Origin: Henriciella sp.
GTDB taxonomy: Bacteria > Pseudomonadota > Alphaproteobacteria > Caulobacterales > Hyphomonadaceae
Reading direction: 5' to 3'
Assembly (NCBI GenBank): GCA_013213785.1
Contig: JABSPZ010000017.1
Coordinates: forward strand, 1-64,000
Length of the DNA: 64,000 nucleotides
Of the stretch, positions 36,664 through 44,407 are shown piece by piece; the first letter of the stretch is position 1, and every line of letters starts with the position of its first letter. Below the pieces are notes generated by a model that ran no database searches, had not been told where the DNA came from, and saw only the letters and a program-made list of their open reading frames with translations. The position numbers and the translations under genes are program-made.

Positions 36664-38247
36664 TTGGCGGGGATCGGATTATCAAAAGAGGCGCGGGACG
36701 GATCCTTGCGCCTCTTTGTTATTTTGGTGCCGATGACGATATTCGTCAGCGCGGCGGTCGCCAGTCTGATCAATCTCGATGGTTTCTTTGCTGTCGCCAA
36801 GGCGATGAATGACTGGATCCTCGCGACGTTTTCCAGCCTGATCTCATGGGCCGTGTTTGGCTTTGTGCTGACTTGTATTGCCGTGGTTGTGTCCCCGCTG
36901 GGGCGCGTCACGATTGGCGGAGCAGGGGCTCAACCAATCTTGAAGCCGTGGAGCTGGTTCTCGATCACCCTCTGTACGACCATCGCTACGGGCATCTTGT
37001 TTTGGGCGATGGCAGAGCCTCTATTTCACCTCTACGATCCTGGTGGTGCGGCGCGCGGCATTGCGGCGGCAAGCGCGGAAGCTCAGCATTTTAGTCTTGT
37101 CAGTCTGTTCATGCATTGGACGATTTCACCCTATGCGATCTACACGGTTGCCGCGCTGACCTTCGCGCTCGCCTACCATAATCTGGGCAAGCCTTATTCG
37201 GTTTCAGGGCCTTTCGTCGCTTTGCTGGGTCGTCCTTTGCCGGTCGCGATTGCAGCCATTCTTGATGCAGCCATCTTGCTGGCGCTCGTCATGGGGATGG
37301 CAGCCTCTCTGGGGGCCGGCATGCTACTCCTATCAGGCGGGATCGCAGACATTACGGGCCTGGCAAGCGGACCTGTTTCGCTCGCTTTGGTGGCAGTTGG
37401 GATCGGTCTCGTCGTGTTGGTGAGTTCGCTCACGGGTCTTATGAAAGGGATCCGTATTCTGTCCGTCACCAATATCTGGTTCTTCTTCGCCTTTATCGGG
37501 TTCATCTTGGTCTTTGGACCAACGGGCGACATGATCGCTCAGGGCGGAAAAGCGATCATAGGCTATGGCGGCGAGTTCCTCGATCGCTCCTTAATGATCG
37601 GGGCTGCCAGCAGCGACCATGAGTGGGCGAAGGGTTGGACCACATTCTATTTCGCCAATTGGCTCGCTTGGGCACCGGTCACAGCTATGTTTCTAGGGCG
37701 TATCGCGAGAGGCTATTCTGTACGCGCCTTCGTACTGGTGAACCTTTTGCTCCCGGCCATTTTCTCAATGATCTGGATGACCGCATTTGGCGTGTTCGCA
37801 ATGGACATAGATCTCTCCCAAGGCGGCGTTTTGAAAGAGACACTCGACGCCAACGGGCCGGAATCGGTGATGTTTCGTGCGCTCGGCGAGTTGCCTATGA
37901 GCGCATTGATGATTCCCGTCTTACTGTTGCTATCGTTCATCTCTTATGTGACCGCGGCTGACAGCAATACCGAAGCCATCTCTCAGATCTGCAAAACTCA
38001 TACACACGCCATGAACGAAGTAGATGAGACCGAGCCAAGCGCGCCGCGCCTCAAGATCCTATGGGTTATCTTACTCTGTCTTTTAGCCTGGATCATGGTC
38101 GCGTTTAGCGGGATTGATGGCGTACGGATGCTCTCAAATGTCGGCGGACTTCCCGCTCTGTTCGTCGTTTTGGGATTGCAGGCGTGCTTGCTGCGAATGA
38201 TGCTTCAATCAGAGGCGCTCAACGCACCGAGAGAGCAAATAGACTAG
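36664..38247 (+). CDS. BCCT-family betaine/carnitine/choline-type transporter
   Basis: A 527-residue polytopic transporter with about 12 helices. Family marks include GILFWAMAEPLFHLYDP (about 100-116) and HWTISPYAIYTVAALTFA (about 141-158), and a long tail. BCCT carriers import compatible solutes or DMSP with sodium or protons, fitting a marine organism. The start is TTG at 36664, three bases after the M16 stop; no ATG precedes the first helix. It converges on the TIR-ParA gene with the two stop codons overlapping (CTAG). Confidence 0.88.
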   Translation: MAGIGLSKEARDGSLRLFVILVPMTIFVSAAVASLINLDGFFAVAKAMNDWILATFSSLISWAVFGFVLTCIAVVVSPLGRVTIGGAGAQPILKPWSWFSITLCTTIATGILFWAMAEPLFHLYDPGGAARGIAAASAEAQHFSLVSLFMHWTISPYAIYTVAALTFALAYHNLGKPYSVSGPFVALLGRPLPVAIAAILDAAILLALVMGMAASLGAGMLLLSGGIADITGLASGPVSLALVAVGIGLVVLVSSLTGLMKGIRILSVTNIWFFFAFIGFILVFGPTGDMIAQGGKAIIGYGGEFLDRSLMIGAASSDHEWAKGWTTFYFANWLAWAPVTAMFLGRIARGYSVRAFVLVNLLLPAIFSMIWMTAFGVFAMDIDLSQGGVLKETLDANGPESVMFRALGELPMSALMIPVLLLLSFISYVTAADSNTEAISQICKTHTHAMNEVDETEPSAPRLKILWVILLCLLAWIMVAFSGIDGVRMLSNVGGLPALFVVLGLQACLLRMMLQSEALNAPREQID

Positions 38248-39551
38248 TCTTCCATCAATTGCTTGAGCTCACCAGCGATCCCGGTGAGGCTTTGCCGGAT
38301 GCGTTTGAGGCCACCGCCGCGCCCGCGATGGATCACCAGGCGCTGCCATGGCAAATCCTCAGACCCAGCGCCGCGAACGACCAGATGGCCCGATCGAGGC
38401 AGTGCGCTGGCCAGCAGCGATTTCGATAGAGCATATCCTGCTTGCTCATCGAATGCACCGTTGCGCGCATCTGCTTCAAAGTTCGATTGCTCCGAGCGTC
38501 CAACCGTATTGAACAAAACGGAAAGATCCGGACGTTTGTCTTCGCTGATCTGCTCGCGGATAACTTGATTGAGCAGCTTCACCCCTCGCAGCGAGTAAAT
38601 GTCCGGATGCATGGGTGTCAGTACGCGGTCCGCTGCTTCTAAGGCGCACCGGGTGAGGAAGGTGGCGTTCGGATTGGTGTCGAAGACGATGAGATCGTAC
38701 TCGCTGCGATAGTAGTCGATCATACGCCGAAAATTGGCGCCGACGACGGCGAGCGCCTCCGGGCTGCTGGCGAACGCATACTTGGAAATCTCAAATTGCC
38801 CGGAGATCAAATCGAAACGGCCTTCCGGGGCTTTATCACCTGTCAGCAGATTATGAGCGATCGTTTCACGGTTCACCGGGTCAAACGGTTCCGTGTTGAT
38901 CTTTGACCAACTGTCGCCTGGCGATGTCATGTCATAGGCATGCAGACGCGACCGCTCGAAGAGAGAAATCACTGACTTATCGCGGGCAGAGCTCGCGTCA
39001 GCATATTCCATGTCAAAGAAGGTTTCGGTCAAATTGTATTGCGGATCGAGATCGATCAGTAGGGTCCGTCCGCCAAGGTTTGCTTGCCAAGCGCCAAACA
39101 CCTGACTGGCAATCGTAGTTTTGCCAACGCCGCCTTTCAGATTCATCACCGCGATGACAGGGCAGCGGCGCTCGTATCGTGTTTTTACGGCCTCGACGAG
39201 ACGTTCCAGGGCGCCTTTATCACCTAGGGAATCTGTCAGCTGATCTGCCAGAGCGGACTTAAACGGTTTTGAGAGGCGCGCATTGTCGACGCGTATGGGA
39301 AAGAGTTTCAGGCCTAGGCGCTGCGCCCGTGCGAGCTGGGCTTCGACGGCTTTCGATCGAATGGAGGAGGCAGAGACCAAGACGACCATGCCAAAGGCGC
39401 TATCGATCGCCTCATTCACGGACTCCGGATCGACTTCCTTACTTCCGGGCGGGGTATACCAAGTCGGGATAGATGCTCGCCGCATAGCCTCATGAACATG
39501 GAGAACAGAGTCCACATCACGATGACCATGAGCAATAAAGAGCTGCGACAT
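38244..39551 (-). CDS. TIR domain fused to ParA-type ATPase
   Basis: A 435-residue two-domain protein. Residues 1-125 are a TIR domain: LFIAHGHRD (4-12), [10 protein letters not shown] (28-37), [12 protein letters not shown] (55-66), [10 protein letters not shown] (80-89). Aligned without gaps to the SARM1 catalytic segment, the NADase glutamate position is Gln72, so it may be catalytically dead. Residues 130-435 are a ParA/MinD-like ATPase: [12 protein letters not shown] (135-146, deviant Walker A with Lys139), LLIDLDPQ (164-171), [15 protein letters not shown] (288-302), [10 protein letters not shown]. No ParB, centromere repeats or replication genes are near. There is no ribosome binding site before the ATG. 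Single gene between BCCT and DAHP synthase genes. A defence or signalling role is inferred from the TIR domain. Confidence 0.85.
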
Positions 39552-39693
39552 TCAGAAAAATCCGACTGGGAGGTGTTTTCTATTTGCTAGCGTGATTAGC
39601 GCGGAACGGCCACACTTTCATGTCATATCCGCGTTCGAACGCTTGATTGTCGAGGATTGCCTGTGCATAAAGCGCGACCTTAAGGAGAAACCC

Positions 39694-41073
39694 ATGACCT
39701 GGACGCCAAGCAGCTGGCGCGATCGCCCAGCTAAGCACATTCCGGAAGACTATCCGGATCTCAATCACCTCGCTGATGTTGAGGCACGCTTGGCTGCGTT
39801 TCCACCGCTCGTATTTGCGGGTGAAGTTCGGACATTGAAGCAACGCCTCGCCAGCGTCGCTGCCGGTGAAGCTTTCTTGCTGCAAGGCGGTGATTGTGCA
39901 GAGAGCTTTAAAGAGTTCAGTGCCGACAATATCCGCGACACACTCCGTGTGATGCTGCAAATGGCGGTCGTCCTGACATATGCGGCGTCTAAACCCGTCG
40001 TCAAAGTTGGTCGCCTCGCCGGTCAATTCGGGAAGCCACGCTCCTCACCGATTGAAGAGATTGATGGCGTGACGCTGCCATCTTATCGCGGTGACAATAT
40101 TAACGGGATGGACTTCACAGAAGCGTCTCGAACGCCTGATCCAGAGCGCTTGATCAAAGCATACTCACAGTCTGCCTCGACGCTGAACCTGGTTCGCGCT
40201 TTCTCGCGCGGCGGTTATGCGGATCTGGCTAACGTGCATCAGTGGATGCTTGGCTTTGTGGATCGGTCTCCTCTGGGAGAGCGTTACTGTGAGATGGCGG
40301 ACAAGATCTCTGACGCGCTCGATTTCATGCGGGCCTGCGGTGTGACATCTCAAAGTGTGCCGCAGATGGCGCAGGTGGAGGTCTATACCTCTCACGAAGC
40401 GCTTCTGCTGGGGTATGAAGAGGCCATGACGCGGATCGATTCCACGTCAGGCGATTGGTATGATACTTCGGCACATATGCTGTGGATCGGTCACCGGACG
40501 CGTCAGGTGGATCATGCTCATGTTGAATTCTGCAAGGGTGTCAAAAACCCAATCGGCATGAAATGCGGTCCGGGCCTCGAGCCAGACGAACTCTTGCGGA
40601 TCATTGAAGCGTTGAACCCAGATGACGAGGCTGGGCGTATCACGCTGATTTCCCGTTTCGGTGCAGAGGGTGTTTCAGAGGGGCTCGCTCCGCTCGCGCG
40701 CGCTGTTAAAGCGAGCGGCCGCACGGTCGTTTGGTCCTGTGACCCAATGCATGGCAACACGCTGAAAACGGATTCAGGGTTCAAGACCCGGCCGGTGGAC
40801 CGCATCCTCACTGAGGTTCGCGGGTTTATTGACGTGTTGAATGCAGAGGGCTGTGTCCCAGGCGGGGTTCATTTTGAAATGACCGGCCAGGACGTCACCG
40901 AGTGTATTGGCGGCGCGCAAGCGATCTCAGAAGCCGACCTGTCATCGAGATATCACACTCATTGTGATCCTCGCCTAAATGGCGAACAGGCTCTTGAACT
41001 TGCCTTCCTGATCGCAGAGAAGCTCCTTGAGATTAAGGACGCCTCCCCAATGCCATCACGCGTAACCGGATAA
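39694..41073 (+). CDS. aroG: 3-deoxy-7-phosphoheptulonate synthase, class II
   Basis: First enzyme of the shikimate pathway, condensing phosphoenolpyruvate and erythrose 4-phosphate. The 459 residues match the plant-type class II enzyme: [48 protein letters not shown], the [13 protein letters not shown] active-site loop, [10 protein letters not shown] and [26 protein letters not shown] lies seven bases before ATG 39694; an upstream ATG at 39592 would add a non-conserved extension. It is 14 bp from the MATE gene, but a functional link is unlikely. Confidence 0.95.
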
Positions 41074-42901: not shown

Positions 42902-43816
42902 TTATTTTGCCAAAATCCACCCTTCTTCGGCGGTAATTCTGTGAATTTCTCCATGAGAAATTGAGTTGGGAGGACCAAATGCGTCCGCTAACTCACCCGC
43001 CGAATCGAGTGATTCGAGGCGTTCAGAGAGCATTTTGACCTGTATTTCGTCCAGAATCTCTCCTGGTTTTGGGGCGATTGGAACGGTGCTGGGGTAGATT
43101 TCTGCGAACACACAGTCGGTATTTTCGAGTAACTCTGGGGTGAATGTCCGGAATCCCGTCTCGAACGGCCAGATCGCGGAGCGCGCTATTCGTTCGCGAA
43201 GAAATGAGACGTTTGGAATACCTAGCATGGCTTGTGACCCGACAGACCCGGCGCCTAAAAGCTGCCAGACTGATTTTGGATTGGCCTTGAAGTTCGCTTT
43301 GATCCAGCCCTCACAAATCCGATGCTCTGCGAGTGACTCCGTCAAAGAAAAGTCTCCCTTTCTCATAGAGAGGGTTGAGACGACGTCTTTCTTAGGTGCG
43401 CCCCAAAACGGATGTGGCCCCTTGGAGATGGCATAGTTCAAACCTGCTGCAAGCGCGAAGCGCGCATTGGAATTGTCCTCGCGTTCTTTGACTTTCGAAG
43501 TGAGGTGCTCATGCATCGCGCGCCAGGGCGGCGCGTTCTTCACATCCAATCCGATCGCATCCGCTGTGCCGGATGGATAGCCGAGTGCGAAGTCGAAGCC
43601 CATGAAAACTTTGTCTCCGCGATTGATCAGTTTTTCCGCGAGCTGGGCGATCAAATCCCTTGCTTCTAATCGGGTGCGTGGATTGGCGCTCGTAAATTTA
43701 AACTTCAGCCGTGCATCGCGGGCCCGTACGCCAACCCAAATCGAGTTTGCACCTGAGACAGGTTTCGCGGATGCGCTCCAATCGACAATTATATAAGCGT
43801 CAAAGAGACGAGCCAT
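42902..43816 (-). CDS. Conserved protein of unknown function, possibly RNase H-fold DUF429-like
   Basis: A 304-residue cytosolic protein. The N-terminal FDAYIIVDWSASAKPVSGANSIWVGV and the later VFMGFDFALGYPSG look like the paired acidic strands of an RNase H-like fold as in DUF429, but I am not certain of the family. Other notable pieces are NARFALAAGLNYAISKGPHPFWG and CVFAEIYPSTVP. Start three bases after the stop of the upstream membrane-anchored protein gene, so the two probably form an operon. Function unknown. Confidence 0.6.
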   Translation of the reverse strand: MARLFDAYIIVDWSASAKPVSGANSIWVGVRARDARLKFKFTSANPRTRLEARDLIAQLAEKLINRGDKVFMGFDFALGYPSGTADAIGLDVKNAPPWRAMHEHLTSKVKEREDNSNARFALAAGLNYAISKGPHPFWGAPKKDVVSTLSMRKGDFSLTESLAEHRICEGWIKANFKANPKSVWQLLGAGSVGSQAMLGIPNVSFLRERIARSAIWPFETGFRTFTPELLENTDCVFAEIYPSTVPIAPKPGEILDEIQVKMLSERLESLDSAGELADAFGPPNSISHGEIHRITAEEGWILAK

Positions 43817-43819
43817 GAC

Positions 43820-44407
43820 TCAGAACGACACGCCGGAAATCGGCTCTAACAGTGTAAAGATCTGTTCAGTTTCCGCATGTTTATTCTTGGTTGTTTGCAG
43901 GGCACCGGATCGCCCATCCCGCAGTTTCACGAGTTCGCCTTCCAAATACTGTCGCCTTGACTCACTGAGATGATCAGAAGCGGTGAGCTCCTTTTCAATC
44001 TCGTCGATATCATCCCAGGTTTCGACAAGTGCAACGAGTGGAACAGTCTCCTCTAAGAAATGCAGGTGAATGGCGCGCCTGAGCGGGATGTCTCGGATAT
44101 CGAAGAGACGTTCGCGGTTTCGCTCATACACCGCTGTTTCATCCAGCGCTGTTCGAAAAAGTCGTTTCGAGACAGGTCCCCATTCTTCGCCAATTTCCAA
44201 CGAGGCAAACGCACGATCCAGGACACGGTCTGCAGAGGTTAGAATTTCTCCAAAAAAGCGGGCCGCCTCACGCTCTTTGCGTTTGCGGCCCAGCCGATCT
44301 TGAACAAGTTCTGCCACCATCGCGCCGCCCGTTGCCAATAAGGCTCCGACAATCACGGCTAAAAGCGTGTCTAGATTGTCGATATAGTCGAAAACAGACT
44401 GGCGCAT
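43820..44407 (-). CDS. Single-pass membrane protein with helical cytoplasmic domain
   Basis: A 195-residue protein with one N-terminal helix (about 12-34, LDTLLAVIVGALLATGGAMVA) followed by a charged, wholly helical domain (DRLGRKRKEREAARFFGEIL..., later KELTASDHLSESRRQYLEGE) with coiled-coil character. No enzyme motif is seen and I do not recognise the family. It lies between an MDR oxidoreductase gene (12-bp gap) and the unknown 304-residue protein gene (3-bp gap) on the same strand. Confidence 0.6.
   Translation of the reverse strand: MRQSVFDYIDNLDTLLAVIVGALLATGGAMVAELVQDRLGRKRKEREAARFFGEILTSADRVLDRAFASLEIGEEWGPVSKRLFRTALDETAVYERNRERLFDIRDIPLRRAIHLHFLEETVPLVALVETWDDIDEIEKELTASDHLSESRRQYLEGELVKLRDGRSGALQTTKNKHAETEQIFTLLEPISGVSF

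Follow-up and report, generated by a model that had tools for sequence, protein, structure and literature searches.

A TIR-ParA fusion protein at a conserved chromosomal site in Hyphomonadaceae looks more like a cell-organising protein than a phage-defence gene

Gene content of the TIR-ParA locus

The window analysed here is a stretch of 64,000 nucleotides from Henriciella sp. (contig JABSPZ010000017.1, positions 1 to 64,000). The window genome comprises 3.36 Mb in 50 contigs, and the nearest named relatives of the window are Henriciella (93% identity), then Hyphomonas. The features at the center of this study are as follows.

36664..38247, plus strand, BCCT transporter gene (Pfam BCCT), convergent neighbour
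38244..39551, minus strand, TIR-ParA gene, 435 aa, ATG start at 39551, stop included
38247..39167, minus strand, ParA/Soj-type ATPase domain, residues 129-435
39168..39551, minus strand, TIR domain, residues 1-128, with Gln72 at the catalytic-Glu position
ATPase motifs, deviant Walker A at residues 137-146 (includes KGGVGKTT), DLDPQ at 167-171, FDTNP at 290-294
39694..41070, plus strand, class-II DAHP synthase gene (Pfam DAHP_synth_2), divergent neighbour

A preliminary description of this DNA had proposed a TIR domain fused to a complete ParA ATPase, and both calls were borne out, the first by profile and fold (residues 1-128) and the second by motifs and fold (residues 129-435), with the gene lying on the minus strand. 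The start codons of the TIR-ParA and DAHP synthase genes are separated by 142 bp, and the DAHP synthase gene is a synteny anchor, outside the TIR-ParA system. At the opposite end, the BCCT gene and the TIR-ParA gene overlap by 4 bp in the window, and therefore no room is left for a partner gene at this locus. Besides these two flanking genes, Pfam matches among the window neighbours identified lspA, two M16 peptidases, a MATE transporter, HU, and a zinc-type dehydrogenase. We found no parB-like neighbour within the window and no pilus gene among the scanned window neighbours, while none of ten scanned neighbours had a PADLOC match; the earlier remark that no parB, plasmid, or defence genes lie adjacent thus holds for the window neighbours.

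The region 42902-43816 encodes a 304-aa protein whose gene stays near the TIR-ParA locus in many loci of both Hyphomonadaceae and f3, a second family within Caulobacterales and the sister family to Hyphomonadaceae. In NCBIfam it scored 113 bits against a MobB fusion model (cut-off 596), with the whole match falling in the model's unknown half, and Pfam gave no match at E values up to 1. Directly upstream of this gene is a 195-aa minus-strand ORF (43820-44407), for which Pfam likewise gave no match at E values up to 1; its NCBIfam match was at chance level only.

In the region upstream of TIR-ParA, 38 of 52 loci have a GANTC (CcrM-type) site, against an expectation of 47% in shuffles. When seven TIR-ParA loci were compared, five had such a site 90-95 nt upstream of the DAHP synthase start codon; none was seen at this distance in the fetched loci without TIR-ParA, and the region upstream of TIR-ParA in the window (39552-39693) has no such site. 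Control of TIR-ParA by CtrA was considered and rejected, as none of the 52 upstream regions has the full motif and 2 have the one-mismatch form, versus 4.6% in shuffles.

TIR-ParA is held at the DAHP synthase site

The divergent pairing of TIR-ParA with the DAHP synthase gene recurs in 72 of 75 loci fetched from Hyphomonadaceae (20/21 and 52/54 in two locus sets that overlap in genomes). The exceptions are L071 of genome G032 in the set of 21, and L087 and L105, both ending at a contig edge, in the set of 54. In f3, where loci were fetched for 18 of 29 matching genomes, the same arrangement is found in 16 of 19 loci, the others being L037, L039, and L040, and the distance between the two start codons is within 0.2 kb in 6 of the 16 and 0.6-1.5 kb in the other 10. 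Omitted from one of the locus comparisons were L009, L011, L012, and L020, which hold the same genes as longer loci, and the truncated locus L019. Given the four non-syntenic copies (L037, L039, L040, and L071), some TIR-ParA copies do move. Many Hyphomonas loci also have a 3′ side of TIR-ParA different from that of the window, with genes that we take to be gor, rpiA, and glmU.

For the 38 family genomes without a match, the DAHP synthase region was fetched for 19, plus G032. In loci without TIR-ParA, gor adjoins the DAHP synthase gene in 7 of 8 g1 (Henriciella) loci and 4 of 4 g7 loci, the eighth g1 locus having other genes. In the genera g3, g5, and g10, five of six fetched loci carry a TIR-less ParA (283-285 aa) near the DAHP synthase site, and the gene of a 122-aa partner overlaps the ParA stop codon; two further loci are cut by contig edges. 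The positions of these TIR-less ParA genes with their 122-aa partners are:

L200, 5029-6245
L201, 7978-9194
L202, 2192-3414
L203, 2406-3628
L208, 7943-9162

This module is absent from L204, and two of the 122-aa partners were tested and had no Pfam family match. Locus L053 carries both modules, TIR-ParA and TIR-less ParA with its partner. With TIR-ParA and TIR-less ParA modules both found at or near this site, the stretch is an old home for ParA modules.

Distribution and mobile-element scans

A TIR-ParA match was present in 67 of 105 Hyphomonadaceae genomes, one each (E ≤ 1e-20); 65 of these matches are long, and the remaining two are a piece of 85 residues in G022 and a distant copy in G032. 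The gene was found in 41 of 42 genomes of g4 (Hyphomonas), the exception being G052, which is 83% complete and also without DAHP synthase, and in 19 of 29 genomes of g1, where the ten without it include well-assembled genomes. In the order sample, a single-sequence query matched 70 of 299 genomes (E ≤ 1e-25), and profile A2 matched 64 of 261 genomes in 10 of 50 genera (E ≤ 1e-45). Given its absence from 10 of 29 g1 genomes and from most genera of the order sample, TIR-ParA is dispensable. With 4-10 candidates scored per genome in the searches of a class and a phylum sample, absence there is weak evidence: in the class sample, a TIR-plus-P-loop profile matched 16 of 385 genomes, two of them, both Hyphomonadaceae, over both parts, and a whole-length profile matched 2 of 385, while the phylum sample gave 3 of 349 genomes, all Hyphomonadaceae.

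None of 1,076 matching plasmid records or 12 matching phage records reached 80% coverage of TIR-ParA. Among the phage-record matches listed (10 of the 12), all were confined to the ATPase part, and no TIR-ParA relative was seen among viral contigs in a pattern scan with a single query. A phage or provirus gene was rejected on these two grounds, and plasmid addiction or partition was rejected given the plasmid records and the fixed chromosomal site. The best reading is that TIR-ParA is chromosomal and vertically inherited, and has long been held at a housekeeping site.

These data bear on the suggestion, made in the preliminary description, of a new antiphage sensor. In one such reading, the ParA part would detect invasion and the TIR part would kill the cell via NAD depletion. 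Killing of this kind is common for TIR domains, and the protein itself has weak PADLOC matches to PDC-M28B (E 6e-4, residues 111-169) and to the SAVED-TIR model (E 0.0095, residues 3-75); incomplete presence in g1 and the non-syntenic copies would also suit a defence gene. We nevertheless regard this idea as unlikely, given the fixed housekeeping site with one copy per genome, the nearly complete presence in the Hyphomonas group, and the loss of the catalytic Glu in the window's clade (Asp or Gln in 54 of 55, see below). Neither the mobile-element association nor, in the window, the defence neighbours that mark a defence gene were found in the record, viral-contig, and PADLOC scans described above.

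The ATPase domain belongs to a single TIR-ParA clade

The ATPase domain shows the KGGxGKT(T/S) loop with the signature lysine, the D-D-Q switch, and the Walker B Asp of the ParA/MinD deviant Walker A superfamily. All 75 distinct TIR-ParA sequences have K139, K144, D167, D169, and D291. For such residue counts, 101 rows were merged to 75 distinct sequences, whereas mean identities were computed before merging; A3 and A6 comprise 40 of the 54 named TIR-ParA loci plus the window, the other 26 of the 80 loci of that set being plain ParAs. The domain has the ParA/Soj fold, and the closest folds in a structure search were chromosome and plasmid ParAs; this whole-model search weighed mainly residues 126-435, and the TIR domain was folded and searched separately. 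With pNOB8 ParA (5k5z) and H. pylori Soj (8jmj), TIR-ParA shares the complete ATPase fold, the deviant Walker A with signature lysine, the Walker B, and the switch residues, but it differs from them in its N-terminal TIR domain and in having no ParB-like neighbour in the window. A role in DNA partition, in which TIR-ParA and a ParB-like partner would move a site on the chromosome or a plasmid, would match the closest folds, yet this is very improbable here, since the window shows no such neighbour and no plasmid record found reaches 80% of the protein.

A quick tree, in which branches are long, drew on 16 Hyphomonadaceae, 16 f3, and 4 non-syntenic sequences. By their ATPase domains, these 36 TIR-ParAs all fell into one clade (support 99), which stands apart from five window-genome paralogues and six TIR-less ParAs. 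The non-syntenic L037, L039, and L040 grouped together (support 94), separately from the 16 syntenic f3 sequences (support 99), and the branching among the family, f3, and non-syntenic groups was weak.

The TIR domain of the window's clade has lost the catalytic Glu but stays under purifying selection

The catalytic position of the TIR domain was placed by alignment to PDB TIRs, in which it aligns with the Glu of PdTIR and others; via the SARM1 motif, we take this position to be equivalent to SARM1 E642. The window has Gln72 here, in place of the Glu of TIR NADases. This position holds D in 35, Q in 19, and E in 1 of the sequences of the Hyphomonadaceae clade (n = 55 distinct), the sole family sequence with Glu being L056 (Ponticaulis). 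By comparison, f3 has E in 11, D in 3, H in 1, and A in 1 (n = 16), and the non-syntenic relatives have E in 4 of 4; since Glu is kept in these relatives, an enzymatic ancestor is possible. According to a passage of PMC7282519, the Glu is needed for NADase function in all examined prokaryotic TIRs. The TIR domain in the window's lineage is thus probably no longer NADase-active, although Asp at this position could retain weak activity.

Estimates of dN/dS were made for 12 close pairs, and 20 of 24 were obtained, with 4 lost to saturated dS. Omega was 0.02-0.12 in both domains, and the TIR and ParA domains are both under purifying selection. Family sequences share on average 52% pairwise identity over the TIR and 69% over the ParA domain; taken with the low dN/dS, the TIR domain therefore evolves faster than the ATPase, without decay. 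A TIR fold that is kept and constrained while its catalytic residue is lost might also be expected of a pseudo-enzyme that binds NAD or an ADP-ribose product without hydrolysis and tunes the ParA switch to the metabolic state. We consider such a sensor unlikely, as other TIR hallmark positions vary too: of the 55 family sequences, 34 have W31 and 3 have W68.

Bacterial TIR NADases (PdTIR, AbTir, SPARTA, and ThsB) share the TIR fold and profile with TIR-ParA, which differs from them in Gln72, the ParA fusion, and the conserved chromosomal site. Prokaryotic TIRs have mostly been studied as NADase effectors of immunity, and here one is fixed at a housekeeping site. A TIR domain that in this lineage has lost its catalytic residue yet stays under purifying selection offers a direct test case for a non-enzymatic, scaffolding role of TIRs in bacteria.

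A small basic protein accompanies TIR-ParA in the sister family

In f3, a small basic protein gene lies directly downstream of TIR-ParA in 16 of 16 syntenic loci, all of whose products belong to one family as detected by queries other than each locus's own protein; the matches were weak and partial for L043 (7e-5, 62 residues) and L045 (1e-9). The four non-syntenic loci all have a small basic gene at this position as well; here the matches were to the loci's own proteins, and kinship was tested apart. A profile of nine f3 partners scored 20.6 bits against L037, the best of 800 shuffles reaching 8.3, and its scores for L039 (6.5), L071 (0.6), and L040 (-1.8 bits) were not above shuffles. The comparison of f3 with non-syntenic partners by profile versus profile gave 94% probability (E 2e-7). 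For L037, common descent with the f3 partners is likely on these alignment scores.

The 13 aligned downstream proteins (9 f3, 4 non-syntenic) are 131-142 aa long with a pI of 9.7-11.2, and in their first 30 residues K/R exceed D/E in 12 of 13, the two being equal in one. Six downstream proteins had no Pfam or NCBIfam match at cut-off. No partner was found in the window genome (G000) by profile A4. As for a partner elsewhere in family genomes, only G032 of 105 was convincing, its own protein being within profile A4, and the matches in G033 (E 0.004) and G098 (E 0.009) were taken as chance. As described in parts of PMC10241942, partners of ParA/MinD ATPases bind the ATPase by a charged N-terminus, and many of these ATPases are called orphans because their partner is unknown. 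Our data point to the downstream basic protein and TIR-ParA as a ParA-partner pair so far unstudied, in the order of Caulobacter. Because this partner gene accompanies TIR-ParA in the sister family, TIR-ParA looks more like a cell-organising protein than a phage-defence gene.

The partner could also be read as the inhibitor of an ancestral NADase TIR-ParA, a toxin-antitoxin-like pair in which loss of the Glu made the inhibitor dispensable in the window's clade. All non-syntenic and f3 members with Glu do have the downstream small basic gene, and the partner-less family clade has Glu in only 1 of 55; however, 5 of 16 f3 members without Glu still have the partner, L056 (Ponticaulis) keeps Glu without one, the ATPase residues are invariant, and the partner shows the charge pattern of a ParA activator. 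We therefore give this reading little credence.

A proposed positioning role for TIR-ParA

We favour, with moderate confidence, a vertically inherited ParA-type positioning ATPase; as the Glu was lost while constraint was kept, its TIR domain would be a module for assembly or cargo contact and not an enzyme. ATP would drive sandwich dimerisation via the KGGVGKTT loop, for which motif and fold are in place, and, by analogy with ParA biology, the dimer would bind the nucleoid until a cargo-bound activator triggers hydrolysis and releases it. Through protein-protein contacts or self-assembly, the TIR domain may link the ATPase to cargo or cluster it. In the sister family, position and charge suggest that the activator is probably the downstream small basic protein; in Hyphomonas, Henriciella, and Ponticaulis, where the partner gene was not found, an unlinked protein or the TIR contact would substitute. 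Counted against this positioning role are the lack of a profile partner in the window genome, the patchy presence in g1 and the order, the Glu retained in relatives, and the non-syntenic copies.

The preliminary description had also raised a membrane- or nucleoid-surface patterning switch, and the nucleoid-surface form of that idea fits better than defence, still as a proposal. As to the findings it had named as refuting its claim, a TIR fold is present in the predicted structure, and the usual neighbour of the homologues is the DAHP synthase gene. A bolder and improbable form is that a domesticated TIR domain polymerises by TIR-TIR contacts on ParA dimers, giving a scaffold under ATP control by which one specific cargo would be placed or moved in Caulobacterales. 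If true, such a scaffold in the stalked budding Hyphomonas could be an unknown factor of cell or chromosome organisation, one candidate role being the active step that takes the origin through the stalk. A part of PMC6650430 describes passage of the Hyphomonas origin through the stalk as an active step that is probably not ParA-driven. The hosts of TIR-ParA include organisms already studied for related questions of cell organisation (Hyphomonas neptunium).

Comparison with known ATPase systems

The cargo-positioning systems McdA/McdB, ParC, and PpfA share with the sister family a ParA-type ATPase with an adjacent small basic partner, and TIR-ParA differs from them in the TIR fusion, in the six downstream proteins that fall outside Pfam/NCBIfam models, and in that the partner of the window's clade was not found. 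CpaE/TadZ proteins, in which a receiver-like flavodoxin-fold domain is fused to a MinD/ParA ATPase, act as a polar hub for Tad pili. Their layout of a Rossmann-like N-terminal domain before a ParA/MinD ATPase is shared, but the N-terminal domain of TIR-ParA is a TIR by profile and fold, without a receiver-domain match up to E = 1, and its scanned window neighbours include no pilus gene. MinD/ParA domains in conflict systems, predicted to be inactive, are described in a section of PMC7159879 and belong to a protein different from TIR-ParA. Among the matches listed for open-licence papers, none described a TIR fused to ParA/MinD in the title or abstract start. ATPase family and TIR fold are each established, and what appears to be new is their combination at a conserved chromosomal site, partnered in the sister family.

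Other TIR- and ParA-like proteins

A control search with TIR_2 gave a match in Caulobacter vibrioides, which may or may not be a TIR-ParA. The window genome encodes a second, degenerate TIR-like protein (L210 1288-2340; 27.3 bits, below the Pfam cut-off) with a hydrophobic stretch near the C-terminus, and its gene presumably sits between YchF-like GTPase and peptidyl-tRNA hydrolase genes. Two other ParA-like proteins are encoded in the same genome (L002 1144-2367 and L003 802-1953), with N-terminal hydrophobic segments that we take to be membrane-like, and the gene at L003 802-1953 adjoins what we assume to be an integrase-like gene.
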